IMG/VR virus record: IMGVR_UViG_3300025846_000038
Location: 1 to 25,143 of that record
DNA from: a virus
Length of the DNA: 25,143 nt
Direction: 5' to 3' (one strand)
Position numbers and translations under genes: made by a program. Of this stretch, positions 4,866-23,286 are shown piece by piece; within the stretch, counting starts at the first letter, position 1; each line of letters opens with the position of its first letter. A model generated the notes under the pieces. It had not been told where the DNA came from. It worked only from the letters and a program-made list of their open reading frames with translations, and ran no database searches.

Positions 4866-4873
4866 TATTTATA
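4866..4873 (-). promoter_or_regulatory. T4-late-like promoter box for the leftward leader operon
   Basis: On the minus strand this reads TATAAATA, the exact T4 late promoter consensus, ending 14 bases before the ATG of the first leftward gene. The window also encodes a gp45-like clamp, which in T4 activates late transcription. No late sigma or coactivator (gp55/gp33) is visible in the window, so the mechanism is inferred. Confidence 0.4.
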
Positions 4874-4895
4874 TATTCAGTGAAAATAGTTGCCT

Positions 4896-4931
4896 AAATA
4901 TTTTTTTGTATCAAAAAATTGATTATATTTG
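4896..4931 (+). promoter_or_regulatory. Extended phage promoter motif, copy for the nuclease gene
   Basis: AAATATTTTTTTG, then ATCAAAAAATTGAT, then TATATTTG at 4924-4931. The last box is a perfect Bacteroidota -7 element (TAnnTTTG). The TTTG at 4905-4908 could be the -33 element, but the gap of 15 bases is shorter than usual for that class. The ATG is 37 bases downstream of the box. Related copies are at 5684, 11643 and 19396. Confidence 0.65.
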
Positions 4932-4968
4932 TATTGTAATAGCAATTAAATCATTAAAACTAAAGAAA

Positions 4969-5574
4969 ATGAAAATTACAAAAAAAGAAACTTTAACTGA
5001 AGCTCCTAAGTATCTTAATGAAAAATGTTTTAATATACGTGAAGCTCATATCGAGTATGGTAGTATTAAAATTCCTACATTTCCACAAATATTTGCAAAC
5101 TCTAATCAATCAGGGCAAGATCAAACAAAAATGTTAAGTTCTATTATTAATAACTTTCTTTACGGTTATATTAAAAAGTATAAAAATGTCGATATTAAAC
5201 AAGAAGCGAATAATCATGATGCTTTATATCATATTAATTTTTTGGAATTTAAATCAACATTAGCAAAAAATGGTTTTGTTAAGGAATGGATTGGAAATAA
5301 AGCATCAAATAAAACTCCCATACATGTACTTATAGCGTACACTTGCAATGATACAACTATAACAGGATTGTTTATTGGTGTAATTGATTTAACAAAAGGC
5401 AGAAAAGACAGAGAAATATATTCAGGTTGGAAACACGGAAAGTCAGAAAACTCGAGTTATTCCAAACTGCAAATTGATATTCGAGACGATGATAAAATGC
5501 ATGTCTTAATAGGAAAACGAAAAAAGTTAACAGCCATCAACAAATATCAGCATTATGAAGTAGAAATGTTTTAA
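4969..5574 (+). CDS. Putative PD-(D/E)XK (restriction-endonuclease-fold) nuclease
   Basis: The protein has 201 residues. I chose the ATG at 4969 because an in-frame upstream reading would cross the promoter. Asp84, then Glu93-Phe-Lys95 (HDALYHINFLEFKST), gives the D-x(8)-ExK core of the PD-(D/E)XK superfamily. It is followed by W107-IGNKASNK and the strand HVLIAYTC, then LFIGVIDL and a W-containing turn (YSGWKHGK), an order I associate with type II restriction-like enzymes. No partner methyltransferase is adjacent; the nearest is MT-A70 at 2287. The gene appears monocistronic with its own promoter. The start (LTEAPKYLNEK) faintly recalls the leaders of the genes just upstream. Catalysis and target are unproven, and the family is inferred from motif order only. 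Confidence 0.55.
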   Translation: MKITKKETLTEAPKYLNEKCFNIREAHIEYGSIKIPTFPQIFANSNQSGQDQTKMLSSIINNFLYGYIKKYKNVDIKQEANNHDALYHINFLEFKSTLAKNGFVKEWIGNKASNKTPIHVLIAYTCNDTTITGLFIGVIDLTKGRKDREIYSGWKHGKSENSSYSKLQIDIRDDDKMHVLIGKRKKLTAINKYQHYEVEMF

Positions 5575-5683
5575 ATCTGCTCTAGAGTACTAGCATTATT
5601 CCGAGTTGCTTAGACACTAATTATATGGACACTTTGAACATAGTTTTGCATATTTAGTTAATGTTTTGTTAAAATAATCCATC

Positions 5684-5720
5684 AAATATTTTTTTTTGTC
5701 AAAGAAATTGATTATATTAC
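5684..5720 (+). promoter_or_regulatory. Extended phage promoter motif, copy for the LamG-like lipoprotein
   Basis: The motif has a T-rich block, TTTG at 5695-5698, TCAAAGAAATTGAT, and TATATTAC at 5713-5720. It differs from the copy at 11643 mainly in the T-run and in the last base (C for G). The ATG lies 34 bases downstream, after two tandem ACAATTAAAA units. The 109 bases between the nuclease stop and this motif show no gene or clear terminator. Confidence 0.7.
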
Positions 5721-5754
5721 TAATACATTAAAAAAACAATTAAAAACAATTAAA

Positions 5755-7038
5755 ATGAAAAAAATGAAAAAACTTGTATTTTTATTATTGATGAGTTTCG
5801 TTATCTTCGGATGTTCAAAACCCGCAGAGTTGACGCCGGACCCGGTTACTGAAGATCCTAAAGTTCCTGTAGTTGTACCTCTGACGTTTTGGTTTAAAGT
5901 AACCCCTGCTTATAGCCATACAATTTGTTGCACTAATACAGCATTAGATGGAACAACTTTAACTTTTGATGGAACAATTGAGATTACTGGTGCTGATCCT
6001 GGTGGAGTAGGGGATAAGAGTACTAAAGTAGATACTGAAGTAGATAAAGGTGTTTATGCAAAACTTGAAGATATACACTATAGAATATCTGTAAAAGCTG
6101 GAAAATGCACAATATTTGTTAGAGATGATAAAACTGGAAAAGAAGTATCAAAAGACACAATAGTAACTACAACAATCGAAATTGATACTCCTGTGGAAAC
6201 TAAATTGCCTGACATAAATGTGTACATCAGGTATAATCAGGATGCTACAAGTTACAATACTTACACAGGATTGGTCCAATTAGATATCAGTGCAGCTTAT
6301 AGACCATTTAGTGTAACTAATGGCATTGATACTCAATATTTTCCGGCAGATCAGAATCCTGACAACTTAACTGGTGAACGCGTAAATTTTGAAAAATTAC
6401 ATGCTGGAACCTACACATTTACTATCAAAGATAATAAAAATAGAACATGGGTACAAGATATTACAGTTTCAGAGCCATTACTGCAACCGGCAATATATAC
6501 AGCAACCACAGTATCTTCAGGAACTAATCTTTCAGAAAAAAGTAATCTTTTTACAGGTCGTAACCAATTTTCTGTATCATTTACGTACGAAACTCCAAGT
6601 TCATACGTAATTAATAAAAATTATCCTACTGCCCCCAGTGCAGCTCTTCTTACAGTATTTACATATAAGAGCGGTATAAATTTAGAATTATCAACTGCAG
6701 GTATTAAATATAAAAGATATAATAATGATACACCCGATAGATACACTGAAGTATTTTATGAGAACTCTGATATTTATAAAGGAAAACATAAAGTAGTTAT
6801 CACATTCAATGATTCAGAAATGTCACTCTATGTAGATGAAGCATTAATTAAATCTGTTAACTCTGGTGTAGATGTTGCATCATATCCTTCCCTATATCCC
6901 GACGGTTTGTATATCGGAACAGATGGGATTAACCAACCATGGATTGGTGCTCCTTATATGGTTTACAACGGAACAATAAGCAATATGAATATTTACAATC
7001 AAGCTTTAGAACTTGCAGATGTAAAAAAAGGTCTATGA
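5755..7038 (+). CDS. Surface lipoprotein with C-terminal LamG-like domain
   Basis: The protein has 427 residues. A lipoprotein signal peptide ends in VIFGC with Cys20, followed by SKP and an acidic/proline-rich linker (TPDPVTEDPK). Residues about 45-245 look like two or three Ig-like beta-sandwich domains. Residues about 250-427 fit a laminin-G/concanavalin-like lectin fold: FSVSFTYET, HKVVITFNDSEMSLYVDEALI, LYIGTDG, and the typical ending YNGTISNMNIYNQALELADV. The ATG at 5764 is an alternative start. It should be anchored in the outer membrane and may bind glycans or cell-surface polymers. It has its own promoter and its own terminator, so it is expressed alone, as moron genes are. A phage-coded receptor mask or conversion factor is my inference. 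Confidence 0.72.
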   Translation: MKKMKKLVFLLLMSFVIFGCSKPAELTPDPVTEDPKVPVVVPLTFWFKVTPAYSHTICCTNTALDGTTLTFDGTIEITGADPGGVGDKSTKVDTEVDKGVYAKLEDIHYRISVKAGKCTIFVRDDKTGKEVSKDTIVTTTIEIDTPVETKLPDINVYIRYNQDATSYNTYTGLVQLDISAAYRPFSVTNGIDTQYFPADQNPDNLTGERVNFEKLHAGTYTFTIKDNKNRTWVQDITVSEPLLQPAIYTATTVSSGTNLSEKSNLFTGRNQFSVSFTYETPSSYVINKNYPTAPSAALLTVFTYKSGINLELSTAGIKYKRYNNDTPDRYTEVFYENSDIYKGKHKVVITFNDSEMSLYVDEALIKSVNSGVDVASYPSLYPDGLYIGTDGINQPWIGAPYMVYNGTISNMNIYNQALELADVKKGL

Positions 7039-7057
7039 TCTTTAACAAAAACTTAAC

Positions 7058-7091
7058 ATCCGAGGTATTTTATATCTCGGATTTTTTTTTT
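7058..7091 (+). terminator. Rho-independent terminator after the lipoprotein gene
   Basis: ATCCGAG (7058-7064) pairs with CTCGGAT (7076-7082); inner GTAT/ATAT pairs extend the stem to a 3-base loop. A run of T follows directly. It ends 20 bases before the next unit begins. Confidence 0.88.
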
Positions 7092-7114
7092 AACTATACA
7101 ATTAAAACTATTAA

Positions 7115-7600
7115 ATGAAAAAGCTAATACTTTTAGTAAAATTATTTTTCTTAGCGTCACTAGCTATGGCGCAAACAACTGAAATCGGTCCTGACCAGTG
7201 GAGTTTTATGACTGATACTTCTGCTTTTGATGGCGTAAGCAGAGCTGCTTTGATTATAGGAACTAGCACTGAAGTTGGTTCACCAATGCTATCGGTTAAC
7301 AGAACTGATGAACAAAAAACAAAAGTTTATTTATCATATTGGCCATCGGGAATTTGTGGCTCAACAAATTTAACAATTAAATTTAAGAATGAAAAGACTT
7401 TATACAATGTTTCAGCATTATATTCAATTAGATATAGACGATATGTTATAGATTTTAATAACAATTTAACTGTTGAAAGCTTTATCGAAAAGCTAAAAAT
7501 TTATCAAAAGTTTTACATCAGAATGATCAGTCAATGCGTTACAATGGATGTAGAGTTTACGTTGGAAGGCGCGTCTGAAGCATTAGAAATACTTAAGTAG
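7115..7600 (+). CDS. Exported protein of unknown function (161 aa)
   Basis: The signal peptide is clear: KK, a leucine-rich core, then SLAMA|Q with a predicted cut near residue 19/20. The mature part begins TTEIGPDQWSFMTD and has strand-like segments (TKVYLSYWPSGIC, LTIKFKNEKTLYNVSA, RRYVIDFNNN) and two cysteines that could pair after export. The WSF-x(n)-KVYLSYWP-x(n)-F-x-N layout recalls small periplasmic proteins of unknown role. The preceding terminator means that this gene either has its own promoter in the 30-base gap or depends on read-through. The following gene starts 1 base after its stop. Confidence 0.65.
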   Translation: MKKLILLVKLFFLASLAMAQTTEIGPDQWSFMTDTSAFDGVSRAALIIGTSTEVGSPMLSVNRTDEQKTKVYLSYWPSGICGSTNLTIKFKNEKTLYNVSALYSIRYRRYVIDFNNNLTVESFIEKLKIYQKFYIRMISQCVTMDVEFTLEGASEALEILK

Positions 7601-7601
7601 T

Positions 7602-7835
7602 ATGGAACTGAATTATATGATACATTGCATTAATCATGCAACAGGAAAACTTAAGAAAACTTTCCATACATTTGAAGAAGCTGTTGAATGGGCAAAACGA
7701 ATGAATAAAAACCCAAAATTTATTCATAAACAAGTGGCATACAAATGCAGACAATGCCTCAAGTTTCATACAGGTAAAAGCCCTCATAATACACTTCTTA
7801 TACATAAAGAAAATATTTTTGAAAATAAAAACTAA
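7602..7835 (+). CDS. Small protein with CxxC-x3-H knuckle
   Basis: The protein has 77 residues and no signal peptide. A helix-forming HTFEEAVEWAKRMNK segment (residues 22-36) precedes YKCRQCLKFHTGK, in which Cys49, Cys52 and His56 could bind zinc; a fourth ligand may be Cys9 or His12. This layout resembles short phage proteins of unknown function. The ATG at 7617 is an alternative start. It is coupled to the gene before it (1-base gap). The last 18 codons and stop are duplicated at 11589-11645. Confidence 0.6.
   Translation: MELNYMIHCINHATGKLKKTFHTFEEAVEWAKRMNKNPKFIHKQVAYKCRQCLKFHTGKSPHNTLLIHKENIFENKN
7779..7835 (+). repeat. 57-base repeat, copy 1 (3' end of the small knuckle gene)
   Basis: This is the intact copy, codons 60-77 plus stop. 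The second copy, at 11589-11645 on the same strand, matches at about 50 of 57 bases by my count. Confidence 0.8.
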
Positions 7836-7850
7836 TTAAAATTTTAAATT

Positions 7851-8378
7851 ATGAAAACTGTGATTTTATTCTTATTAATTATCCTTTTATTTTGTGTATC
7901 TTGTAAAAAACAGGATTTAAATCCTGTTAATAAAGAACCTTATAAAAATTCTTTATTGATAGAGGAATATATCCACGATTCAACTGGGATAGTATTTAAA
8001 ATAATAAATGATATTGATTCAGCATATAATTATCAAGAAAAATTCAATCAAAAAGTTGACAGTGTTTATTTAAAGAAATTTCATATTTTTATTGGAGATA
8101 CAAATATGTATAGCACTACTTACACTTGGTTTTCGAAAAAAGGACAATACGTATGTTGGAGATATAATTATATAGATGGCAATTCTAAATTAATCGATAT
8201 AGGATTTCCTAATCATATTAGATATTATAACCCTTGGAAATATTGTGGCTTTGTAACTTATATTTTTTGTTCAGAACCATCAAGAGAATCCTATCAATTA
8301 TTACAAAGATTCCCTAAACCTATTAACGATACAGTATATTGCAAATTATCGTCTTTTTTTCCAGATAAATTATGGTAA
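7851..8378 (+). CDS. Lipoprotein of unknown function (175 aa)
   Basis: The N-terminus is MKTVILFLL and a long hydrophobic run ending in CVSC, with Cys18 as the likely lipidated residue, followed by KKQDLN. The mature part is aromatic-rich (YTWFSKKGQYVCWRYNY, YYNPWKYCGFVTYIFC) with several cysteines. No family is recognised. It is the last gene before a strong bidirectional terminator. The leader AATTAAAATTTTAAATT before the ATG is typical of this genome. Confidence 0.65.
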   Translation: MKTVILFLLIILLFCVSCKKQDLNPVNKEPYKNSLLIEEYIHDSTGIVFKIINDIDSAYNYQEKFNQKVDSVYLKKFHIFIGDTNMYSTTYTWFSKKGQYVCWRYNYIDGNSKLIDIGFPNHIRYYNPWKYCGFVTYIFCSEPSRESYQLLQRFPKPINDTVYCKLSSFFPDKLW

Positions 8379-8380
8379 TA

Positions 8381-8413
8381 AAAAATGAGAATCAATATTG
8401 ATTCTCATTTTTT
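8381..8413. terminator. Bidirectional terminator between convergent units
   Basis: Perfect 12-bp inverted repeat: ATGAGAATCAAT at 8385-8396 and ATTGATTCTCAT at 8397-8408, flanked by an A-run on the left and a T-run on the right. It can end both the rightward lipoprotein unit and the leftward adhesin gene. Confidence 0.9.
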
Positions 8414-8427
8414 AAAGTTAATTTCTT

Positions 8428-11400
8428 TTAATCTTTTATTAATCTTAATGAAAAATAATTTGTTCTAACTTGCCACGAAAAGTATATTGTATTTGTGTTG
8501 TCTAAATAAAGTAGTTCAGTATTTCCTGTAGCATCTGTTGAAGTCCACCATAATCCATAACTTTTTAAACCGCCGAAACCTCCCCAATTTCCACCACCAC
8601 CACGACCACCCCATCCAGAGGTATTAGTTCCATTAACTGTATTCCAATAAGTTGTTCCTATTTCCTTTAAACTATTAGCAGAATTACTGACAGTAGTTTT
8701 CAGTGTTTTATATTCAGTTTCTGATGGTAAGTGAAAACCCGGATACTGAGCAACAGCAGTACTTAATTCGGTATAGGTATAAAGTCCGCCATAAAGTGCT
8801 CTATTAGCCTCATCGTTATTATATACTGTGCCAACTACATTTGTATCAACATTATATTTCATCCAAACTTGTGAACCAATAGTAATAGTTGGAATTGTAG
8901 ATAAAGTTGTTACATTCAAAATATTAGATGGATTAGAATCACCTGCTAAATTATGGGCAAATACTTTATACCAATATGATGTTGATGGAATTACACTATT
9001 ATCAAAGGCCCAATTGGTACCATTATTTGATATTAAACTATAATTAGCCCCATCTGTTGATTTATATAGTTTACACCACTCAGTGTTCGTATTCCATTGT
9101 AAGAGGATTGATGTACTTCCTATATCTGTTGCTATTAAGTTTGTTGGTGCATTAGGTACGACACCAGCTGTTTGAACAACTATCCTCAATATTCCAACCA
9201 CTGTATGACCAGTTGAATTATAACAATCGAGTCCAAAATAATATATAGTATTAGCAGTAAGTCCAGTAACATTAAATGTTGTTGAATTGGCAGGTAATAT
9301 TTGTTCCCATATTGGCGGATCGTACGTAGGATCGATGTATCGTATTACTTTATAATTAGTCTCGGTTACAGAATTATCTACCCACGATAAATTAATTTGA
9401 TTAGTGCCAATATATGATGCTACAAAATTCGTTGGAGATGATGGAATACATGGTATAGAACTTGTAGTAAATTCCCTTAAATCACTGTATAACGATGTGG
9501 AATACGTATCAGTTGCTTTTATTCTATAATAATATGTCGTTAATGGTAAAACAGACCAATCATTATATAAATAATATTCACCCCGTTGATCATTGGGATA
9601 TGACGGAGTAAGATCAGACAAGTGATTCCAATTTACATTATCCGTTGATTTTTCTAATATAACTGTATTATTCATGAAAGATTCACTAATCATTGCACAC
9701 TCTATTCCACAACTAGCATGTTGAGTCATGGTAAAAAAGAATGGTTTACGAACAATTAAGGATGGTTTTTCACCAACTTGAATATCGTCAATTATGATAT
9801 AACTACCATCGGCTACGATTTTTATAGATGTTAAAGTTTTGCCTACAAAATAACTGCTAATACTATATAAAGTATGCAGATTAATTGCGTTACCCCACCA
9901 ATAAGAACCACCAAGACACATTAAATCATTATAGCTGCCATAGGATGTTTGACTCGTAATCCGAATCCAAGGTAAACTATCACTTTTAATATAAAATTTT
10001 ATCCAATATTTATCTACAGACCAATCAAGAATATCATTAAGAGGAATATTTATTTCTATATGAGTTATATTAGATGTTTTTACATATTTTAAGCTATTTG
10101 TTCCTTCATAACTATCATTAGATATGACAATAGCAGGTGTATTGGATTCCAAATAAGCACCACTATTAATAAATCTAATTTCAGAATCTGTGACTCCGGC
10201 ACGCGTTTCGGCATTTACAAAATCTGGAATATTATTTATGTTCAATGGTATCGATGTGGGCCTAGCACTTACAATATTAGAATCCGAAGAATTACCCTTA
10301 GAATTATACGCACACACCTTATAGAAATATAGAATTGAAGGATTTGTGTCATTATCTGAATAATTACAAACATTGGTTGTAGTGGTTGCAATTTCTGTCC
10401 ATGACGTATTATTATATAACGACCTGTAAATTCTAAATAGTGATTCATAATCACTATTATCACTCCAATTTAAATCAATCTTTGAAGAAGATACAACAGT
10501 GGCTATTAAGTTAGTTGGAGCATTAAGAAAGGGTATCGCAATCGATATATAATTTGAAAAAGATGATTCCAATCCAGCTGGATTGAATGTTACAATTTTA
10601 TACCACCAAACCAATATTTCAGAATCTAAATAATTATTAATATATGTTGTTGGTGTAGGTAAAACACTGTAATTATTAACTTTTTCAAACAATGAGTAAT
10701 TGCTGCCATCAACTGATCTAAATACTTTAAATCCAATTACACTACTATCATTTGGAGAAAAAGATAATGTAATTTCCATAGCACTATCATCAAAAAATCC
10801 TGTTAAATTCGTAGGAGTATTCGGCATATCAAAGGGATTTAAATATGTATAATTTATATCTTTAATGTACAAAGGTTCGTAATAGGCTGATACGTCAATT
10901 TGATGCGTCGACGCTTCCCATCTAATAAGAGGTAAAAAACAAAATCCTACAGCAGACTTTATAGGATTACTCATATTTATGCTCAAATCTATTATTTTGG
11001 CTGTAAGATCATATTCAAAAGGAGTCCAAGACGTTTTGGCTGGTAAATCTTCACAAACTTCTATGAATTCAGAACCGTCTTGCTGGCCAGGTCCAGCCAT
11101 GTCATCTCCTGTAAAATCTAAATAAATTTGATAATCATTATCAGATTTATAATTAAAAGATATTTTATAATGATAATCAGGTGTTGTTAAAATATTATAA
11201 GGATTCATAATATTCACCCCTATTGTATTTTCTGCATAATATGCACCCCAATATCCTTCTAACATTTTAAAACACGGGGTTGGATTTATTTCAGATTCGA
11301 TATGTCCTTCCCAGTGAAAATCCGGGCCAGCTGGTCCGCCAACTACTGCCGCAAAAACAAAAGAATTTTGCATGGTGTCATCGTAAATCCATCCTGAAAC

Positions 11401-11454
11401 ATCGCTGTTAGCAATGATAGGATTTGGTAAATATTTGGTTAAATAATTGCTCAT
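8428..11454 (-). CDS. Tail adhesin: multi-FN3 with C-terminal FISUMP (C-type-lectin-like) domain
   Basis: The protein has 1008 residues and no signal peptide. Order: an N-terminal part of about 200 residues with jelly-roll-like strands; FN3 domains about 212-308 and 311-398; a carbohydrate-binding-module-like region 402-563; three more FN3-type domains about 567-666, 671-764 and 767-852; then residues 854-1008. That last part begins ITIGSQVWMKYNVDTN, contains GFHLPSETEYKTL, a glycine-rich loop and SYGLWWTSTD, and ends in FSLRLIKD, as in Fib_succ_major/FISUMP domains, which have the fold used by the Mtd-type variable proteins of some phages. It is most likely a receptor-binding tail fibre or a virion adhesin. 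It is the only gene of its leftward unit. Without structural neighbours, a secreted adhesin cannot be fully excluded. Confidence 0.8.
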   Translation of the reverse strand: MSNYLTKYLPNPIIANSDVSGWIYDDTMQNSFVFAAVVGGPAGPDFHWEGHIESEINPTPCFKMLEGYWGAYYAENTIGVNIMNPYNILTTPDYHYKISFNYKSDNDYQIYLDFTGDDMAGPGQQDGSEFIEVCEDLPAKTSWTPFEYDLTAKIIDLSINMSNPIKSAVGFCFLPLIRWEASTHQIDVSAYYEPLYIKDINYTYLNPFDMPNTPTNLTGFFDDSAMEITLSFSPNDSSVIGFKVFRSVDGSNYSLFEKVNNYSVLPTPTTYINNYLDSEILVWWYKIVTFNPAGLESSFSNYISIAIPFLNAPTNLIATVVSSSKIDLNWSDNSDYESLFRIYRSLYNNTSWTEIATTTTNVCNYSDNDTNPSILYFYKVCAYNSKGNSSDSNIVSARPTSIPLNINNIPDFVNAETRAGVTDSEIRFINSGAYLESNTPAIVISNDSYEGTNSLKYVKTSNITHIEINIPLNDILDWSVDKYWIKFYIKSDSLPWIRITSQTSYGSYNDLMCLGGSYWWGNAINLHTLYSISSYFVGKTLTSIKIVADGSYIIIDDIQVGEKPSLIVRKPFFFTMTQHASCGIECAMISESFMNNTVILEKSTDNVNWNHLSDLTPSYPNDQRGEYYLYNDWSVLPLTTYYYRIKATDTYSTSLYSDLREFTTSSIPCIPSSPTNFVASYIGTNQINLSWVDNSVTETNYKVIRYIDPTYDPPIWEQILPANSTTFNVTGLTANTIYYFGLDCYNSTGHTVVGILRIVVQTAGVVPNAPTNLIATDIGSTSILLQWNTNTEWCKLYKSTDGANYSLISNNGTNWAFDNSVIPSTSYWYKVFAHNLAGDSNPSNILNVTTLSTIPTITIGSQVWMKYNVDTNVVGTVYNNDEANRALYGGLYTYTELSTAVAQYPGFHLPSETEYKTLKTTVSNSANSLKEIGTTYWNTVNGTNTSGWGGRGGGGNWGGFGGLKSYGLWWTSTDATGNTELLYLDNTNTIYFSWQVRTNYFSLRLIKD

Positions 11455-11588
11455 AAAATATAGTTTTTTGGGTTAAGTGTAACTGAAGTGTTACAATTAT
11501 TTTGGTTCGCTACAAAGAAAATTGTAGTTATTTTCTAGAAATTATATTCTATATATCTACCAACTAAAATAAAATAAATAACATTTTA

Positions 11589-11645
11589 AGTTCTTATAAT
11601 ACACTTCTGGTTCATAAAGAAAATATTTTTGAAAATAAAAGCTAA
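11589..11645 (+). pseudogene. Remnant copy of the 3' end of the small knuckle gene
   Basis: Reads S-S-Y-N-T-L-L-V-H-K-E-N-I-F-E-N-K-S-stop, against S-P-H-N-T-L-L-I-H-K-E-N-I-F-E-N-K-N-stop at 7779-7835. Similarity stops upstream of 11589, so the rest of the gene is missing. It ends at the edge of the promoter motif at 11643 and is probably a relic of duplication or recombination. Confidence 0.75.
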
Positions 11646-11681
11646 AATATTTTTATTTGTCAAAGAAATTGATTATATTAG
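11643..11681 (+). promoter_or_regulatory. Extended phage promoter motif, copy for the DUF932 unit
   Basis: TAAAATATTTTTATTTG, TCAAAGAAATTGAT, and TATATTAG at 11674-11681. Identical to the copy at 19396-19434 over 39 bases except for one base (G at 11659). Its first three bases are the stop codon of the remnant gene. The likely ATG is 25 bases past the box. Confidence 0.75.
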
Positions 11682-11706
11682 TACTATAGAATTTAATAAT
11701 ACATAT

Positions 11707-12090
11707 ATGCAAAACGTAGAAATGAAACAGCCAATGATACAGGCAACCGAACTTCTTGAAGCTATTGGACTTAAAAATACTACCACTAAGCGCCAGCTTA
11801 AAAACGGTACACTTCAGTTTACAGACCCCAAAAATAAGCCTGTAAGTTATACTCTTCACGCAAATGGTTATTATCGCAAATACATCCGTTCAGGCTATTA
11901 CTTCGCTTCTGGTGGTACTGAGGGTTATCAACTTAATCGTGTACAAAAAGAACCGTATTTCATACCACAAAATGAATATCATAAAGCAATTAAAGGATTT
12001 TGTTTAACACGTATTCTTATCCCAGGTGAATATCTTCTTATGGCTGCACGTATTGTAAGAATTGCACTCAAATCACGTAAACGTAAATAA
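11707..12090 (+). CDS. Hypothetical basic protein, 127 aa
   Basis: I chose the ATG at 11707, the first after the promoter box; the ATG at 11722 is an alternative. Residues 12-45 (QATELLEAIGLKN, then KRQLKNGTLQFTDPKN) suggest a short helix and hairpin. The middle is tyrosine-rich (YYRKYIRSGYYFASGGTEGYQLN), and the C-terminus is basic (RIVRIALKSRKRK), which could suit nucleic-acid or membrane contact. No family is recognised. It lies 18 bases before the DUF932 gene and is probably co-transcribed with it. Confidence 0.6.
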   Translation: MQNVEMKQPMIQATELLEAIGLKNTTTKRQLKNGTLQFTDPKNKPVSYTLHANGYYRKYIRSGYYFASGGTEGYQLNRVQKEPYFIPQNEYHKAIKGFCLTRILIPGEYLLMAARIVRIALKSRKRK

Positions 12091-12108
12091 TTTTTAATAC
12101 ATACACAC

Positions 12109-12969
12109 ATGACAACTATCGTCAACCCAATCACCAGCATCGGTTACAAAGTATCATCAATTGATGAGATTCGTGACCATGCACCTGCCGCTTTTTCAGC
12201 ACACGAAAGCCCAAAGGTTTCTGACCGTTACTCTTTCGTTCCAACCCTCGACTTACTTACAGCATTTGATGCACTAGGATGGCATCCTACATACGCACGT
12301 CAGAACGGCACAGGCCCTTACGCCCGCCACATGGTTCGTCTCGCAAACCCAAAACTTGGGTTTATGGACCTTAAATCTGATAAAGTGAAACCTCAGATTG
12401 TACTCGACAACTCTCACAACGGAATGTCGAATGCTCAAATTCACATGGGTCTTTTCAGACTCGTCTGCACAAACGGACTCGTCGTCGCAATGCCAGGAAT
12501 GTTCACCTCTGTTAAACTTCGTCACGTAGGTATTGATATGACTGAACTTAAACAACTTATGGAAGTTGTTGCCAATCAATACAACACTATTGGAACCCAT
12601 ATTAAAGAAATGCAGCAAGTTAAACTCAATCAGGATGAAAGAGAACAATTTGTTATCAAAGCTGTTGCAGCCAGAGAACCTCACGTTTTCATTAAGGAAG
12701 ACGGAACGATAGACATGAAGAAAGCCACAACTATTATTAAACCTTATCAAATTGTTGAACCTTTAAGAGGTGAAGATAAGAAGGAAGACCTTTGGACAGT
12801 ATTCAACATTATACAGGAAAGACTTGTAAAAGGCGAATTCGATCGTCAAACAATGAATGGTCGTAGGACGAAACCAAGAGGCATAAACAATGCAGTTCGT
12901 CATATCGATTTCAATAAGAAACTTTGGGAAATAGCTGAAACTTATATGGTTCCAGAATTAACTCAGTAA
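12109..12969 (+). CDS. DUF932 family protein
   Basis: The protein has 286 residues. The family core is at residues about 95-126: PQIVLDNSHNGMSN, AQIHMGLFRLVCTNGLVV. It also has the usual start with RYSFVPTLDLLTAFDALGWHP and the C-terminal helix-rich part (DLWTVFNIIQERLVKGEF, NAVRHIDFNKKLWEIAE). DUF932 proteins are common in plasmids and large phages; their biochemical role is not established. The 5' half uses many C-ending codons and is visibly GC-richer than the 3' half. That could reflect selection for strong expression or a mosaic origin. Confidence 0.85.
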   Translation: MTTIVNPITSIGYKVSSIDEIRDHAPAAFSAHESPKVSDRYSFVPTLDLLTAFDALGWHPTYARQNGTGPYARHMVRLANPKLGFMDLKSDKVKPQIVLDNSHNGMSNAQIHMGLFRLVCTNGLVVAMPGMFTSVKLRHVGIDMTELKQLMEVVANQYNTIGTHIKEMQQVKLNQDEREQFVIKAVAAREPHVFIKEDGTIDMKKATTIIKPYQIVEPLRGEDKKEDLWTVFNIIQERLVKGEFDRQTMNGRRTKPRGINNAVRHIDFNKKLWEIAETYMVPELTQ

Positions 12970-12990
12970 TCACTTTTAAAACATAAAATC

Positions 12991-13296
12991 TTGGCAATAC
13001 TTGGAATTTTTGGGGCAGGATTAATAGGATTGTTTATAGCAATCTTTATTTACGGACCTATTCTTTTATATTTTTTCTATGTGCCCACAACGAATAAACT
13101 TCGTGTATCAGAAAAAGTAGAGGGACCATACACATACTATCGCTCAGAATATTATCGTCCAATTGCTGGATGGACTGGATTTAACGCTTCAAAATATAAT
13201 GGAACTATATGGGTGGATAATTCATGGACAAATAATAAACAATATTGTGAAGATAATATTGTAATTTACAAAAACCTTAAAAACATAAAATCATGA
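12991..13296 (+). CDS. Small membrane protein, tandem paralogue 1 (TTG start)
   Basis: The protein has 101 residues. The start is TTG at 12991: the 13 bases before it (AAAACATAAAATC) are the same as those before the ATG of the next gene, and translation then gives a clean hydrophobic helix (residues 2-30). The helix is followed by TNKLRVSEKVEGPYTYYRSE, then GWTGFNASKYNGTIW, shared in outline with the next protein (TN-x-x-RV-x-EK; GW-x-x-F-x-ASKY-x-G-x-I). Function unknown; it is probably anchored in the inner membrane with a small soluble domain. It overlaps the next gene by ATGA. Confidence 0.65.
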   Translation: MAILGIFGAGLIGLFIAIFIYGPILLYFFYVPTTNKLRVSEKVEGPYTYYRSEYYRPIAGWTGFNASKYNGTIWVDNSWTNNKQYCEDNIVIYKNLKNIKS

Positions 13297-13586
13297 CAGA
13301 AACACTTGCATCAATATTCGTAATTATAGGCATTGCATCAGTTTTCGTAGTATTTGCCATATTTTTCAGATGGTTCCCTGCAACAAATGTTTTTCGTGTT
13401 GCTGAAAAGAAAAAAGGAACACTTATGTTTTACAGAGCTGAAGTACGTCATCCATTTTTTGGATGGTCTCCGTTTTGGGCTAGTAAATATGATGGTGTAA
13501 TTAGCAGATGTTATGATTGGGAAATGTATACTTCCGGTGCACTTAATAATATCGAAGTATTCAAACAGCTTAAACCAATTAAATAA
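13293..13586 (+). CDS. Small membrane protein, tandem paralogue 2
   Basis: The protein has 97 residues. One membrane helix (about residues 6-28) is followed by FPATNVFRVAEKKKGTLMFY, then GWSPFWASKYDGVI, the same layout as the preceding protein, so the pair arose by tandem duplication. The leader before its ATG also repeats. No function can be named. Confidence 0.7.
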   Translation: MTETLASIFVIIGIASVFVVFAIFFRWFPATNVFRVAEKKKGTLMFYRAEVRHPFFGWSPFWASKYDGVISRCYDWEMYTSGALNNIEVFKQLKPIK

Positions 13587-13587
13587 T

Positions 13588-13869
13588 ATGAAACTCGGAA
13601 AACTTTTGTATCTTATTGCCATAGTAGTTATGGCTATAATGTCTTATGTTATGATTACACATGGATGGCCTTTTGCCGGATATTTCGTCGGATTAATAAC
13701 ATTTGCTGGCACAATTAATTATATTGATATTGTTGAAACAAATCGTCAATATGCTTGCAAAAAATACAAAAGCATGAGAGCTATTCACTTTAACAGTATG
13801 ACGCATGAACAACAAGAACGTCATTTATTTGATATTCATAAAGAAATAGAAAAAAAACTTAAAAAATAA
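13588..13869 (+). CDS. Small membrane protein (93 aa)
   Basis: Two hydrophobic segments at about residues 5-24 and 27-48, then a charged tail with MTHEQQERHLFDIHKEIEKKLKK that can form a helix. The ATG at 13588 follows the previous stop by 1 base; a longer reading from 13513 would overlap the previous gene and add no signal. Not recognised. It belongs to the run of membrane genes 12991-13869. Confidence 0.6.
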   Translation: MKLGKLLYLIAIVVMAIMSYVMITHGWPFAGYFVGLITFAGTINYIDIVETNRQYACKKYKSMRAIHFNSMTHEQQERHLFDIHKEIEKKLKK

Positions 13870-13873
13870 AAAT

Positions 13874-14167
13874 ATGAAGACAAAAAAATATACAGATAAA
13901 GAGCTTGCAGAAGCACATATATTTCCTAGTCAGTTATCTCCTACTGAGAAAAAAGAAACTGAAAAGGAATTTTCAGAGTTTCGGAAGAATCAGACCTTTG
14001 ATGGAATAAATATCGAAAGAATCAATATCGTTCATGGCAACCTCGCTATTATAGATAATAACAAGGTTCTATACTACCTCATCCCAGGAGAACTCATACA
14101 GATTCTTAAGAATGTTAAATTTAATGTCAAAGAAATGAAACATAAATGGATATCACCTAAAAAATAA
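13874..14167 (+). CDS. Hypothetical protein, 97 aa
   Basis: The N-terminal half is highly charged and probably helical (LSPTEKKETEKEFSEFRKN). The second half is strand-like (INIVHGNLAIIDNNKVLYYLIPGE), followed by a lysine-rich end. No signal peptide, membrane segment or known motif. It lies 4 bases after the preceding gene and is in the same transcript. Confidence 0.55.
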   Translation: MKTKKYTDKELAEAHIFPSQLSPTEKKETEKEFSEFRKNQTFDGINIERINIVHGNLAIIDNNKVLYYLIPGELIQILKNVKFNVKEMKHKWISPKK

Positions 14168-14182
14168 AAATAAAAATAAAAA
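14165..14182 (+). repeat. Tandem TAAAAA units before a start codon
   Basis: Three perfect TAAAAA units, with a partial unit before them, end just before the ATG at 14184 and overlap the previous stop codon. They may serve as an A-rich translation leader; copy number could vary by slippage. Confidence 0.7.
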
Positions 14183-14183
14183 T

Positions 14184-14447
14184 ATGGGATATTATATTAA
14201 CAAAACAAGCAAAGGAGTTGAACTCCCAAGTTCTGATAAAGCAGATTATCTTATACTTGATGGTGCTGTAGAAGTTCCGGCAAAATTTCAAGCAAATCTT
14301 ATATGCGTAGTTGAAAATCCAGCATTTGATGCAGCTGCATACGCTTATAGCGAAAATGAATTTAATGCATTCAACTATCCTGATGGCAGACCAAAAAGAT
14401 GGTTGGTTCACCCTATGGCTGCAAAGCTATCTGGATATAATTCGTAA
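14184..14447 (+). CDS. Conserved phage protein of unknown function (87 aa)
   Basis: The sequence MGYYINKTSKG, then LPSSDKADYLI, VPAKFQANLICVVEN, FDAAAYAYSENEFNAFN, and DGRPKRWLVHPMAAKLSGY follows a pattern I have seen in many large phages, often near DNA metabolism genes, with no assigned role. No membrane segment is seen. It ends 39 bases before the topoisomerase gene. Confidence 0.7.
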   Translation: MGYYINKTSKGVELPSSDKADYLILDGAVEVPAKFQANLICVVENPAFDAAAYAYSENEFNAFNYPDGRPKRWLVHPMAAKLSGYNS

Positions 14448-14486
14448 AACTTTATACTTAATCCTCATATAATATAAAAAAATTGC

Positions 14487-16298
14487 ATGGCAATAAAAAT
14501 TGATCAAAAGAACTCAAAAGAAATTATTGCATTAAATACATTTGAAGCGGTTCGTCTAAGACCGACTATGTACATAGGTCAAGTATCGCCTACAGAAGAA
14601 AAACTTCCTTTGGTTATTAAAGGAACACTCACATCTGTTCAAAAAGTTTGGTCACAGGGTTTTATGCACCTTATTGTTGAAATACTTGAGAACGCATTAG
14701 ATGAAGCGAAACGTTGCAAAGGTAAAATGAAAAACATTACTGTTAAAGTAAATCTTGACACTAATGAAATAACTGTGATTGATGAAGGCTTAGGCTTTCA
14801 TAATGCTGCAAAAAAACATCCTAAAACTAAAAAGAATGTTGTTCGTACTGCATTAGAAGAATTACACGCAGGCTCAAACTTTACAGATACAGATGAAAAT
14901 ATTTTGGGAACGAATGGTGTAGGTTCTGCTATAACAAATATTCTTTCAGAAAGATTCACAGTTGAAACAGTGAATAAAACACACTTTGTCAGGTTTGTTT
15001 GGAATGACTTTAAAATAGTTGAAGAAGAAATTCGTAAGAAAACTCCTAAAGATATTCTTGGAACAAAAATAACATTTATTCCATCAAAGGAATTATTCCC
15101 AAATTATAAGTGGGATTACGATATTATAACTACATACTTATCTTATAAAACTTTTCTGGTTAAAAACGACCCTGTAATAAGTAAACTCAATTTAAGAGGT
15201 TATTTTATTGAGGGAGGAAAGGAAAAAGATATTCCCATAACTGCAGTATTTATTCCTGCAGAACATATAGTTGTTTCAAACAGTTACGGAACGATTTACA
15301 TGTGGGAAGCCTATGAAAATTCCTGCTCATTATCATTTGTTAATGGATCGGAATGCACGGGAATACACCAGAAGGTTGTAAATGATTGGACCAATGAATA
15401 CTTTAAGTACAATTTGGCACACCATTTCTATGAAACGATGATATCACTCAACGTTCCATCGACTCTTATGAGATTTGCAGACCAGAATAAAACAAAATTT
15501 GCTGCAGGAAGATGGGAACTTGAAGAAGACATGAAAGAACGTTTCATGGATAAGATGTTGAAGCTTTTGAAAAAGTCTCCATTATCTGTAAATATTGAAA
15601 AATCTATTGAGGATCGCATGCTCAATGATAATATGAATAAGATCAAAAAAGCAGGAAGACAATCAAAACGTAAAATATCAGAAAAGTTCAGCCCTGCATC
15701 AAAGTTCAGACAAAACATTTACATTACTGAAGGACTTTCTGCTGCAGGTTCAGTTAAACAAGCAAGAGATTCTGAAACTGATGCTATATACGCTCTTAAA
15801 GGAAAAGTTAAAAATGCTCGTAAATTATCTGATCTTACTGGAAATGTGGAATGGTTAGATATAATGAGCATACTTGAAATCGAACCTGGAAGCAAAAAAT
15901 TACCTGTGTATGATAAAATTATCATTGCAACTGATGAGGATGCCGATGGTCAACATATTAGTTCTTTAATCATAAGCTTTTTCCATAGATGGTTCCCACA
16001 AATCATTGAAGATAAAAGACTTTATAGAATTATTACTCCATTAGTTTCATGCGATGCAGGCAAAGAGAAAAAGTATTTCTTCACATTTGAAGAATTTCAA
16101 GATTTTTCAACAAAAAATAAAGTTGCCGGCGTTAAATATTTGAAAGGACTTGGATCTCTTTCATTAAAAGATTGGGAATATGTAATGGACAACAAAACGT
16201 TATTTTCGATTATTAATGATAGAAGTGCAGGGAAATTTTTAGATATAGCGTTCGGCGATAACGCAAACCGTAGAAAAAAATGGTTACAAGGCGAATAA
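14487..16298 (+). CDS. Type II DNA topoisomerase large subunit (ATPase plus TOPRIM; T4 gp39/gp60-like)
   Basis: The protein has 603 residues. The N-terminal GHKL ATPase shows RLRPTMYIG (23-31), Glu65 and Asn69 in VEILENALDEA, DEGLGF (99-104) and GTNGVGSA (141-148). The TOPRIM domain shows Glu415 in YITEGLSAAGS and the Asp483/485/487 cluster in IIATDEDADGQH, then LKGLGSL. These give ATP-driven strand passage together with the breakage-reunion subunit at 20441. In T4 the equivalent is split into genes 39 and 60; here it is one uninterrupted gene, as in cellular GyrB/ParE, but shorter than GyrB. It supports replication and relief of supercoils. Its stop overlaps the AAA+ gene by 19 bases, so the two are probably translated together. 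Confidence 0.92.
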   Translation: MAIKIDQKNSKEIIALNTFEAVRLRPTMYIGQVSPTEEKLPLVIKGTLTSVQKVWSQGFMHLIVEILENALDEAKRCKGKMKNITVKVNLDTNEITVIDEGLGFHNAAKKHPKTKKNVVRTALEELHAGSNFTDTDENILGTNGVGSAITNILSERFTVETVNKTHFVRFVWNDFKIVEEEIRKKTPKDILGTKITFIPSKELFPNYKWDYDIITTYLSYKTFLVKNDPVISKLNLRGYFIEGGKEKDIPITAVFIPAEHIVVSNSYGTIYMWEAYENSCSLSFVNGSECTGIHQKVVNDWTNEYFKYNLAHHFYETMISLNVPSTLMRFADQNKTKFAAGRWELEEDMKERFMDKMLKLLKKSPLSVNIEKSIEDRMLNDNMNKIKKAGRQSKRKISEKFSPASKFRQNIYITEGLSAAGSVKQARDSETDAIYALKGKVKNARKLSDLTGNVEWLDIMSILEIEPGSKKLPVYDKIIIATDEDADGQHISSLIISFFHRWFPQIIEDKRLYRIITPLVSCDAGKEKKYFFTFEEFQDFSTKNKVAGVKYLKGLGSLSLKDWEYVMDNKTLFSIINDRSAGKFLDIAFGDNANRRKKWLQGE

Positions 16299-17611
16299 AA
16301 ACTGAAATCTGTTCAGTACGTTATTTCAAAGGATATAAAACTATTGTTGTAACCCCTGATATAATAAAACAATTTAACGAACAATCAAAAGATATGCAAT
16401 TAGAAAAATATGATGATTATGACGAGGATGGCATCCTCATAGAAGAAAAAGAAGACTGGAAAGATATTGCGTTAAATATCACGGGAATTCCTACTTTAAA
16501 ATTCAGTGATATAAAAGAAATGCCATTTACAGAAATACATAGCAAAATAATTCCTGGTGATAGTTATGCTGCATATATTGATGCATATTCAGAATTAGGT
16601 TTTTATATGTATTGCTATCAAATTTATAATAAATTTAATCCATACACATATAGATTTGAAAAATTTAATGTAAGTATGTTTATTAAAAATCTTTTTAAAT
16701 ATTATAAAGTTCCTACTACTGCGTATGTTAAAACGTCATATCAAGATAATAATGGAGCATTAATTACATCAATGATAATTGGATTTAGTGATACGCTTTG
16801 GATGTACATTGATGGTCCAGATAAAGGCATACTTTATTATGACCCTAAAGATGAATATGACCCTAAATCATTATTGCATACAGTATTAGGATTACTTAAA
16901 ACTGCTAAACGCCCAAAGATAGCAAAAAACAAAATTTATATCGTTCATAGAAACAGTCACGGATTTGAAAAAACTGGCTTCAATATTTCAAAACGTAAAA
17001 TCGATTTGAATGAAAATTACAATGATGATTTTGTGCCTATTTCTGATAAAATCATTGAAGGCTTAAATAATAAGAAGAAAACATATCTTGTTATTTTAAG
17101 TGGAGAATATGGCACAGGAAAAACGAGTTATATTCGTTATCTTGCAACCAAACTAAAAAAGAACATTATCTTTATATCATCAGACATGGTAGAGTCAATT
17201 ACCGACCCATCTTTTATCCCATTTCTTATGAGTAATAATGATGCCATTCTTATTATTGAAGATGCAGAACCCGCTCTTGAAAAAAGAGGAAGTGGTGGTA
17301 GAACTAGTGCAGTATCTAATGTACTTAACTTAACTGATGGATTACTTTCTGATTGTTTGAAAATTTCTATTGTAGCCACTTTCAATACAAAAGAAAAGAA
17401 TATCGACGAAGCCCTTATGAGAAAAGGAAGACTTTTAATGAACTATAAATTCGAAAGACTTCAACTAAACAAAACAAAAAATCTATTGAAGAAACTAGGA
17501 CATGACGAAAATGAAGTTAAAGAACCTATGACTTTGGCAGATATTTACTATTACGGAACTGATAACAACGCAAAAACAAATAAAGGCAAACGAATAGGGT
17601 TTACAAATTAA
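16280..17611 (+). CDS. AAA+ ATPase
   Basis: The protein has 443 residues. Walker A is GEYGTGKT at residues 275-282, Walker B is ILIIEDAE at 323-330, sensor 1 is TFN at 367-369, and Arg381/Arg384 in MRKGRL fit an arginine-finger or sensor region. This set resembles the BCS1/proteasomal side of the AAA family. The first 265 residues, with acidic and tyrosine-rich stretches (KYDDYDEDG; YMYCYQIYNKFNPYTYRF), are not recognised and may recruit substrate. A C-terminal KGKRIGF tail follows. It probably remodels a protein or protein-DNA complex. The 19-base overlap with the topoisomerase gene suggests linked expression, not necessarily a shared complex. Confidence 0.82.
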   Translation: MVTRRIKTEICSVRYFKGYKTIVVTPDIIKQFNEQSKDMQLEKYDDYDEDGILIEEKEDWKDIALNITGIPTLKFSDIKEMPFTEIHSKIIPGDSYAAYIDAYSELGFYMYCYQIYNKFNPYTYRFEKFNVSMFIKNLFKYYKVPTTAYVKTSYQDNNGALITSMIIGFSDTLWMYIDGPDKGILYYDPKDEYDPKSLLHTVLGLLKTAKRPKIAKNKIYIVHRNSHGFEKTGFNISKRKIDLNENYNDDFVPISDKIIEGLNNKKKTYLVILSGEYGTGKTSYIRYLATKLKKNIIFISSDMVESITDPSFIPFLMSNNDAILIIEDAEPALEKRGSGGRTSAVSNVLNLTDGLLSDCLKISIVATFNTKEKNIDEALMRKGRLLMNYKFERLQLNKTKNLLKKLGHDENEVKEPMTLADIYYYGTDNNAKTNKGKRIGFTN

Positions 17612-17623
17612 AATTTAAATAAA

Positions 17624-18157
17624 ATGAAAACGGAACTACAACAAAAACTTTTGAATAAATATCCTCAATTCTTTTCAACTAATATAAAAATCTATACGGG
17701 TGAAAAACCGATGATAGAAGAACTTAAAGAATTGGTGAAACAAAAAGAAATGGTATTACCAATACAGTTCGGATTTGAGTGTGGAGATGGTTGGTATATG
17801 CTTCTTGACACACTTATGGATGATATTGCTAATCATCTTAAATGGAAAAATGAAGATCGTGAAAAGAAGGGCGGATCGCCTTTAATAGTGCAGGTAAATC
17901 AAATCAAAGAAAAATTTGGTGGATTATCTTTTTACTTTTCAGGTGGTGATGAAGTAATATGGGGAATGATCACATTAGCTGAAAGCTTGTCATATAAAAT
18001 ATGCGAAACTTGTGGAACGACACTTAATGTTGGTAGAACTCGAGGATGGATTTATACTTGTTGCAAAGATTGCTATGATAAAAATGATAGAGCCAAAAAC
18101 ATGAGTTGGAAACCGATAGGAGAACGTTTTGATGAAGACAATAAAAATTTAAACTAA
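17624..18157 (+). CDS. Phage protein with C-terminal zinc-ribbon-like motif (177 aa)
   Basis: Residues 48-67 (QFGFECGDGWYMLLDTLMDD) and 90-106 (QVNQIKEKFGGLSFYFS) match a pattern widely seen in phage proteins of unknown function. The C-terminal part has Cys127 and Cys130 (CETC) and Cys146/147 and Cys150 (CCKDC), spaced to bind one zinc ion. It may contact nucleic acid or protein. It is the first of four genes joined by TAATG overlaps, which suggests translational coupling with the genes downstream. Confidence 0.7.
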   Translation: MKTELQQKLLNKYPQFFSTNIKIYTGEKPMIEELKELVKQKEMVLPIQFGFECGDGWYMLLDTLMDDIANHLKWKNEDREKKGGSPLIVQVNQIKEKFGGLSFYFSGGDEVIWGMITLAESLSYKICETCGTTLNVGRTRGWIYTCCKDCYDKNDRAKNMSWKPIGERFDEDNKNLN

Positions 18158-18339
18158 TGAAAATTATTATTGGGATTTTGTTAATGTATATTCTTGCTGT
18201 AGCAATGGGTACTTGTTTATGCAAATTGACAATGCCCGAAGACACAATTAAAAAACATTTGAAAATAATGTTAATTGGATTCGGAATAGCATTTGCAACA
18301 ATAGGAGTATTAATGAATATGACCTTTAGTTTTGTTTAA
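18157..18339 (+). CDS. Small membrane protein (60 aa)
   Basis: Two hydrophobic helices, about residues 2-24 and 36-58, are joined by a short loop (TMPEDTIKKHLK). Both ends of the gene use TAATG overlaps. It contains LCKL and several methionines but no named motif. Holin-like size, but it is placed among metabolic genes; function unknown. Confidence 0.55.
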   Translation: MKIIIGILLMYILAVAMGTCLCKLTMPEDTIKKHLKIMLIGFGIAFATIGVLMNMTFSFV

Positions 18340-18728
18340 TGAAAACCTCTTGCTTTAAATATTACACAGGTGAAATGGGAGTGGCCATTTGTCTATATCC
18401 TCCAATTGATTGGTCGGGATTAAGATTTTCTGCGCTTGAACCTGACAGAGATATCTTTTTTGCAATTAAAAACGGCCAATTGACTCAAAAGGAATATGAA
18501 AAACTTTATATACAAAATACTCTTTCAATATTAGACCCTACAAACATATACAATATGTTCAGCAAAAATGTATTGTTATGTTGGGAAGACCCAGGAGAAT
18601 TTTGCCATAGGAGAATTGTGGCAAAATGGATTGAAGAAAATACTGGATTTGATGTTCCAGAGTGGAATATCAAAGATGACAAATTAGAACAACTACAACA
18701 AAAGAAAAATATCAAACCTTTATTCTAA
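18339..18728 (+). CDS. DUF488 family protein
   Basis: The protein has 129 residues. The order SCFKYY, VAICLYPPIDWSGLRFSALEPDRDIFFAIKNG, YIQNTLSILDPTNIY, and LLCWEDPGEFCHRRIVAKWIEE fits DUF488; the LC-W-E-x-PG-x-FCHR-x-x-VA-x-W core is diagnostic. Its biochemical function is not established. It directly precedes the NADAR gene with a 1-base overlap, and I recall short DUF488 proteins as frequent in phage and mobile-element accessory regions. Confidence 0.8.
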   Translation: MKTSCFKYYTGEMGVAICLYPPIDWSGLRFSALEPDRDIFFAIKNGQLTQKEYEKLYIQNTLSILDPTNIYNMFSKNVLLCWEDPGEFCHRRIVAKWIEENTGFDVPEWNIKDDKLEQLQQKKNIKPLF

Positions 18729-19210
18729 TGAGAACAACAGATACACACATATATTTTTGGGGATCGTTCCTTTCGAATTGGATTCCGGCTGATTTGGAAA
18801 TTGAATATCTTGGAAAAAAATTCAATACTTCTGAACAATTGTATATGTATATTAAAGCCAAGGCTTTCAATGATCATGAAACAGCTCATGAGATTTTAAC
18901 AAAAGGCCAGCATCCTAAAGACGCAAAAAATTTAGGTAGAAAAGTTACAAATTATGATGATGAAATATGGGCAAAATATCGTGAAGAAGCAATGTATAAA
19001 GCAGTATTCGCAAAATTTTCGCAATATCCATATTTGTGTATGCAACTTTTAGACACAGGCGATAAAATTCTTGTTGAAGGCACTCCATTCGATCCAATTT
19101 GGGGAGTTAAAATTAAATGGGACGATGACAAAATATTGGACGAAAAGAATTGGAAAGGCCAGAATTTACTTGGCAAAGTATTAATGAAAGTAAGAAAAGA
19201 TTTGAGATGA
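18728..19210 (+). CDS. NADAR domain protein (YbiA-like N-glycosidase family)
   Basis: The protein has 160 residues. It contains FWGSFLSNWIPADLEI (10-25), KFNTSEQLYMYIKAKAF with Glu36 (31-47), HPKDAKNLGRKV (62-72), a helix-rich middle, and LVEGTPFDPIWGVK (115-128), together the full NADAR signature. Family members hydrolyse N-glycosidic bonds: YbiA acts on riboflavin-pathway intermediates, and others remove ADP-ribose from guanine in DNA as antidotes to DarT-type toxins. For a phage, reversal of host ADP-ribosylation or a nucleotide-salvage role are both reasonable; the sequence does not decide. It is coupled to DUF488 upstream and overlaps the next gene by ATGA. Confidence 0.87.
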   Translation: MRTTDTHIYFWGSFLSNWIPADLEIEYLGKKFNTSEQLYMYIKAKAFNDHETAHEILTKGQHPKDAKNLGRKVTNYDDEIWAKYREEAMYKAVFAKFSQYPYLCMQLLDTGDKILVEGTPFDPIWGVKIKWDDDKILDEKNWKGQNLLGKVLMKVRKDLR

Positions 19211-19398
19211 CACAATTTACGCTAACCGAGAAACAAGAAAAGCAATTGAAGAAATGGCAAAATGCCATTAAAACAGTTTATAGTGAGTATGGAAATTTCG
19301 AATATCGTTTCCGTCCAACTGGCATTGGCGATGGTATTGAAGTCTGGAGTGATTTGGCTAAGACAACTATTGATCTAACTGATGTAAATAATTGGTAA
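19207..19398 (+). CDS. Hypothetical protein, 63 aa
   Basis: The ATG at 19207 overlaps the NADAR stop (ATGA) and gives MTQFTLTEKQEKQLKKWQ, a charged helix, followed by YGNFEYRFRPTGIGDGIEVWSD, probably beta strands. A longer reading from 19150 would lie inside the NADAR gene. This helix plus FRPTGIGD-x-x-x-VWS layout is common in small phage proteins of unknown role. Its stop codon is the first three bases of the promoter motif. Confidence 0.65.
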   Translation: MTQFTLTEKQEKQLKKWQNAIKTVYSEYGNFEYRFRPTGIGDGIEVWSDLAKTTIDLTDVNNW

Positions 19399-19434
19399 AA
19401 TATTTTTATTTATCAAAGAAATTGATTATATTAG
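19396..19434 (+). promoter_or_regulatory. Extended phage promoter motif, copy for the PTH2-like/topoisomerase unit
   Basis: The same 39-base motif as at 11643, with one change (TTTA for TTTG). TATATTAG is at 19427-19434, only 3 bases before an ATG at 19438, so transcripts should begin at or just inside that codon. Confidence 0.72.
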
Positions 19435-22354: not shown

Positions 22355-22371
22355 GTGATGTATAATACTTA

Positions 22372-22379
22372 TATAAATA
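22372..22379 (+). promoter_or_regulatory. T4-late-like promoter box before the clamp gene
   Basis: Exact TATAAATA, 21 bases before the clamp ATG and just behind a terminator. In T4 the clamp gene itself is not mainly late, and the region is very AT-rich, so chance is a real alternative. Confidence 0.35.
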
Positions 22380-23248: not shown

Positions 23249-23286
23249 GTTTATCTCGTCTTAAATATATAAAATAAAGTATCGAT

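Follow-up and report, generated by a model that had tools for sequence, protein, structure and literature searches.

A putative promoter family of uncultured T4-like Bacteroidota phages, present in four copies in a 25-kb viral record

The DNA analysed here, called the window, is the whole of the 25,143-base IMG/VR virus record IMGVR_UViG_3300025846_000038, which is probably a genome fragment. It carries four + strand copies of an element of about 48 bp, in which an A-rich block, a T-tract, a TnTCRR box (R = A or G) and the word TTATATT precede a start codon, and which an earlier note on this DNA had described as an extended promoter motif. Genes were called with a simple longest open reading frame (ORF) caller and no trained gene finder. 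The four copies are laid out as follows.

4882 to 4929, + strand: element copy 1, one base shorter; AAAATA at 4883-4888, T-tract at 4901-4907, TC at 4911-4912, TTATATT at 4923-4929, ATG at 4969
5671 to 5718, + strand: element copy 2; AAAATAA at 5671-5677, ATTTTT at 5688-5693, TnTCRR at 5697-5702, TTATATT at 5712-5718, ATG at 5755
11632 to 11679, + strand: element copy 3; AAAATAA at 11632-11638, T-tract at 11649-11654, TnTCRR at 11658-11663, TTATATT at 11673-11679, ATG at 11707; TTTT occupies the canonical -33 position at 11651-11654
19385 to 19432, + strand: element copy 4; upstream box at 19385-19391, T-tract at 19402-19407, TnTCRR at 19411-19416, TTATATT at 19426-19432, ATG at 19438, predicted leaderless

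The word CAAAGAAATTGATTATATT has perfect matches at 5700, 11661 and 19414 and a copy with three mismatches at 4911, always on the + strand, where 0.16 matches would be expected by chance and none of 100 shuffled sequences reached four. The recurrence reported in the earlier note is thus real, and so is the single-base difference that it gave for the last two sites (11643-11681 and 19396-19434), which are alike at 38 of 39 positions (97.4%). A + strand ORF lies downstream of each site, with 40, 37, 28 and 6 nt between the last T of TATATT and the start codon for sites 1 to 4. That each site heads a distinct transcription unit is borne out to this extent, although site 4 lies within a run of + strand genes and a distinct unit there is therefore presumptive. 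The same note had recognised the family only in part: it overlooked the AAAATAA block (-54 to -48) and the stem-loop forms described below, as well as the abundance of copies in relatives.

Relatives were collected through topoisomerase and DUF932 proteins and through the motif itself. A held-out matrix of 31 columns, trained on 46 sites from relatives with all window sites excluded, was applied to 16 contigs and gave 112 matches at scores of at least 20 versus none in reversed sequences, so that the further copies whose absence would have spoken against the motif in the eyes of the earlier note do exist. Most matches (104 of the 112) are intergenic, and the next gene is codirectional for 109. 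Window copies 2, 3 and 4 are among the matches; the shorter copy 1 and the partial relative proposed at 44-51 are not. The latter is weak: it scores 17.8 with the first matrix and is missing from the three window matches that the held-out matrix gives at 16 or more. Leaving out G007, which repeats part of G008, and adding two indel variants, the family comprises 106 distinct copies in 15 records. From a first set of 52 sites three low-scoring matches were dropped, and a count of 51 sites omits the weak window match at 37.

An IUPAC motif search of viral_contigs returned 14 stretches in 12 contigs, five of them already known as relatives by protein, while in genome_contigs the motif occurs in a single phage-like contig from a Bacteroidetes metagenome-assembled genome (MAG). 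A general host promoter was ruled out on this distribution. An exact 20-mer had three places in viral_contigs, two of which (L004 and L006) fall inside a coding gene and were set aside as chance. Genes driven by element copies include an NAD ligase and a tRNA nucleotidyltransferase. At G002 140176-142896 (L028), an NAD-dependent DNA ligase is encoded in two ORFs with another ORF between them, each half having its own element; in L072, the contig from the MAG, one long ORF of 639 aa with a ligase-like sequence follows the element at 4740. A search of Rfam with the window and three pieces of G002 found no family, and no description of the element was found in the literature, which is weak evidence, as the papers on the PeSL motifs of T4-like phages and most subscription papers lay outside that search.

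Across 49 aligned copies, the layout is AAAATAA at -54 to -48, ATTTTT at -37 to -32, TnTC(A/G)(A/G) at -28 to -23 and TTATATT at -13 to -7. The A-rich, UP-like AAAATAA block is conserved at 71-94% per position, and C at -25 is present in 49 of 49. Among the 106 copies, TATATT occurs in 104, amounting to a near-consensus box for the host primary sigma factor, and TC at -26/-25 in 103, at a fixed distance from TATATT. The TC box is not a product of the matrix alone, since a search for TTTTT-N18-TTATATT, with TC left out of the pattern, gave 110 places of which 87 have it. The box forms TATATTTG, TATATTTA and TATATTAG occur in 30, 44 and 20 of the 106 copies, in agreement with the Bacteroidota -7-type box named in the earlier note. 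Its unusually short gap to TTTG did not hold up as a real feature: TTTG at gap 14 occurs in only 34 of the 106 copies, and at gaps 17-33 in none. Two rRNA promoters of one Bacteroidota genome read TTTTG-N19-TACCTTTG, and at this N19 spacing the phage element has TTTT, not TTTG; the anomaly therefore depends on which T-rich word is called -33.

The conserved middle had been taken as an extra protein contact, a phage activator or an altered polymerase. For the whole TCAAAGAAATTGAT core this does not follow, as the window copies are 95.7% identical to one another and 76.5% identical to copies elsewhere, whereas in other contigs the two values are close. The conservation of the core is mostly the product of apparent homogenisation within the window's genome. 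What persists of it across the family is the near-invariant TC with two purines (-26 to -23), and for this part an extra activator contact is possible.

The distance from TATATT to the start codon is bimodal: 10 distinct sites (12 with a duplicate record) lie at 6-7 nt and none at 8-13, the rest being mostly at 14-50. Between the -7 element and the start site, 4-5 nt are given for Flavobacterium johnsoniae (PMC6847099), with which the peak at 6-7 nt agrees. The close group includes window copy 4 with the ORF at 19438, and the mRNA of this gene is predicted to be leaderless. None of the 36 window ORFs has a Shine-Dalgarno-like word, as expected for Bacteroidota hosts.

In 20 of the 106 copies, a strong stem-loop (energies of -9.4 to -21.9) lies upstream of the box; the remainder are at -7 or weaker. 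When the left and right halves of all 106 copies were permuted, the own halves paired better (-4.57 vs -2.98, 0 of 5000 permutations), the arms thus covarying, and 20 copies are at -9 or lower compared with 2.8 expected by arm permutation. The 8 nt that follow the stem are richer in T in the stem copies than in the others (6.15 vs 3.83, p 1e-7), and the upstream gene is codirectional in 20 of 20 as against 69 of 86 (p 0.038). These two comparisons are partly circular, the copies having been split by energy, and the unselected arm-swap test is the fair one. The stem-bearing copies are a putative promoter and a predicted terminator fused. Searched as DNA against the phage collection, one of them returned only weak matches to unrelated phages. 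One stem-loop of the window stands without the box.

7058 to 7107, + strand: stem-loop (dG -13.2), ten T and the leader word ACTATACAATTAAA, with no TATATT, before the ORF at 7115

Across all contigs examined the word ACTATACAATTAAA has five occurrences, of which four lie within elements, and 7058-7107 is most likely an element copy that has kept its putative terminator and lost the box. In G002, about 122784 on the - strand, a stem-loop stands with TTATATTTAC and the TC box is absent, which places this copy outside the matrix definition.

Sequence may also have moved between copies. Window copy 1 and the element at G002 119253 are 91% identical over 93 nt, the identity ending at the start codon, and the proteins downstream are unrelated. 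Directly upstream of copy 3 lies a remnant of a gene end.

11588 to 11645, + strand: remnant of the 3' end of gene 7602-7835, a copy of 7778-7835 at 88% identity

In G002, an intact homolog of gene 7602-7835 stands directly before an element, and the remnant in the window is a presumptive recombination footprint. In 29 of 86 homolog pairs both genes are behind an element, while genes following an element make up 7% of all genes.

In the 162-kb relative G002, copies occur at 1.8-9 kb and 96-144 kb and none at 9-96 kb, where the portal gene lies. In the latter block, GATATATAA-type boxes are over-represented (6 sequences vs 0.1 expected), and a separate GATATATAAAATAAA late-type class exists beside the element family. 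Matches to a gp55-type late sigma factor, found only by family search, are present in three of five relatives; such a factor fits the separate late boxes better than the element. Five late-type boxes were located in the window.

2835 to 2844, + strand: GATATATAAA, before the endolysin gene at 2859
4868 to 4877, - strand: AATATATAAA, in front of the - strand gene 4384-4851 and in divergent orientation to element copy 1
11548 to 11557, - strand: GATATATAGA, 103 nt ahead of the - strand gene 8428-11454 and in divergent orientation to element copy 3
22370 to 22379, + strand: TATATAAATA, before the ORF at 22401
23264 to 23273, + strand: AATATATAAA, before the ORF at 23287

Models for MotA and AsiA (phrog_1345, PF09010) each matched in none of the five relatives, whose records are possibly fragments, and the AsiA positive control matched nowhere. 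PHROG searches with 40 G002 proteins returned no transcription factor.

We consider it probable that the four sites belong to a strong promoter family of uncultured T4-like Bacteroidota phages, with a role of the T4 early type and read by the host polymerase. The family is placed before codirectional non-structural genes and is absent from the structural block of G002. The TATATT(T/A)(G/A) box and the -33 T-tract would be bound by host RNA polymerase carrying the primary sigma factor of Bacteroidota, the A-rich box upstream would offer a UP-type contact, and transcription would start about 7 nt after TATATT, which would leave the gene at 19438 without a leader. In about a fifth of the sister copies, the same stretch would act as an intrinsic terminator blocking read-through from the preceding codirectional gene. 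Copies appear to recombine with one another, which would set one promoter and leader before unrelated genes.

Several observations weigh against this reading. The exact host consensus TAnnTTTG is found in 30 of the 106 copies only, TTTG at the canonical gap in none, and the near-invariant C at -25 falls outside the described host consensus. The stem is missing from all four window copies. Late-type boxes also occur beyond the structural block, with 28 in G002 compared with 17 in the reversed sequence, and they lie nearly everywhere in G008; the temporal class of the element is suggested by gene class and position. A homolog was found for 40 of 76 genes just behind elements and for 311 of 517 neighbours (p 0.21). 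Genes behind elements are thus as conserved as their neighbours, so that gene shuffling is argued from single cases, and as a general result of recombination between copies it is plausible.

A phage activator on TnTCRR (-28 to -23) might instead replace the contact of sigma region 4, as T4 MotA does, with the host sigma factor on TATATT. Such middle-type promoters would suit the fixed position of TC (103 of 106 copies, and 87 of 110 places in the TC-free search), which lies near that of the MotA box, 12 +/- 1 bp from -10 (PMC2988021), and would suit the replication and repair genes served (NAD ligase, tRNA nucleotidyltransferase). We nevertheless judge them unlikely, because under host spacing a T-tract already sits at -33, the stem-bearing copy at about 122784 (- strand) of G002 lacks TC and keeps TTATATTTAC, and neither MotA nor AsiA was matched in the five relatives, although with the AsiA control silent the absence of AsiA is not established. 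In RB49, RB43 and Aeh1, early promoters were predicted, whereas middle promoters and a motA ortholog were sought without success (PMC1524935), so a T4-like phage can do without them. A doubtful but more far-reaching proposal is that TnTCRR is the target of a novel phage regulator, which would capture the Bacteroidota polymerase in the manner of MotA/AsiA with unrelated proteins; the 48 bp would then combine promoter, regulator site and, where the right arm is complemented, terminator in a cassette spreading through the clade.

If the element served chiefly for recombination or as a mobile cassette, with promoter activity secondary, this would account for the likeness among window copies (95.7% vs 76.5% against others), the gene-end remnant ahead of copy 3 and the identity of window site 1 and G002 119253 that ends at the start codon. 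This reading is improbable, given that promoter traits are evident in the codirectional placement of 109 of 112 matches, in the peak of leaderless distances and in a -7 box that stays constant, and that the flanking genes are no less conserved than their neighbours. The boxes are AT-rich and the window has 31% G+C, yet a compositional artefact deserves next to no credence, being refuted by the controls (0 of 100 shuffles with four matches; 112 vs 0 matches in reversed sequences).

Other genes of the window were identified as follows.

2859 to 3674: endolysin, with a late-type box in front
12109 to 12969: DUF932 protein
14487 to 16298 and 20441 to 21880: T4-type topoisomerase subunits

In a search of 50,697 phage records, the best-ranked topoisomerase matches had 28% identity and every one of the 2016 matching records was below 60%; judged by this protein, the putative T4-like clade of the window is without a near relative among them. 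The - strand gene 8428-11454, with a late-type box in front, encodes a protein of 1008 aa that has fibronectin type III and Fib_succ_major domains and may act in the tail or in adhesion. Between it and the converging gene 7851-8378, a terminator-like stem on both strands occupies 8387-8416. The protein encoded at 22401-23186 is conserved in five relatives (59-86%) and had no match in PHROG and Pfam searches; it resembles a sliding clamp in position and sequence. The direct repeat TTTAACA-N4-6-TTTAAC was counted 27 times versus once in reversed sequence, at 5658-5672 (-) and 7042-7056 (+) in the window and in many places in relatives, often 40-42 nt ahead of the element core. It resembles a Pho-type box.

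Promoters of Bacteroidota phages are poorly mapped, and for a T4-like clade without near relatives among the 50,697 phage records the element would supply a precise model of the promoter together with a predicted start site; its sites are candidate strong or leaderless expression signals for Bacteroidota. Primary-sigma (sigma-ABfr) promoters of Bacteroidota (TTTG / TAnnTTTG; PMC7366714, PMC6847099) share with it TATATTTG (30 of 106 copies), the start distance and, if TTTT is the -33 word, the N19 spacing. Unlike them, the element lacks TTTG at the canonical gap and has fixed spacing and extra conserved boxes.

T4 early promoters have consensus regions beyond those of host promoters (PMC2988021). 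They resemble the element in their many near-identical copies, conservation past the host consensus, A-rich upstream block and place before early and novel ORFs, apart from gp55-type late boxes (PMC2988021, PMC1524935). They differ in their TATAAT box, whereas the element has a Bacteroidota -7-type box, a T-tract at -33 and an added TC(A/G)(A/G) at -26 to -23. In T4 middle promoters, too, a box specific to the phage sits at about -30 to -23 with constant spacing to a -10-type box, but its sequence, (a/t)(a/t)TGCTT(t/c)a, is unrelated to that of the element, and the MotA model had no match in the five relatives. The T4 late promoter is a TATAAATA-type box without upstream elements, in contrast to the upstream boxes of the element.

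Closest to the stem-bearing forms are the PeSLs of T4-like phages, reportedly motifs in which promoter and terminator are combined (Arbiol 2010, Comeau 2014). They too are reported to join promoter and stem-loop in one short intergenic cassette and to set the same element before unrelated genes. In RB49, 9 of 19 printed intergenic stretches, counted by eye, have the stem between -35 and a point just beyond -10, while that of the element is further upstream; its loop falls on the -33 T-tract and a T-run occupies the spacer. Unlike in PeSLs, the stem is confined to 20 of 106 copies and is absent from the four window sites. A promoter-terminator fusion known from enteric T4-like phages is thereby suggested for phages of another phylum, with its own sigma factor and in a different register.

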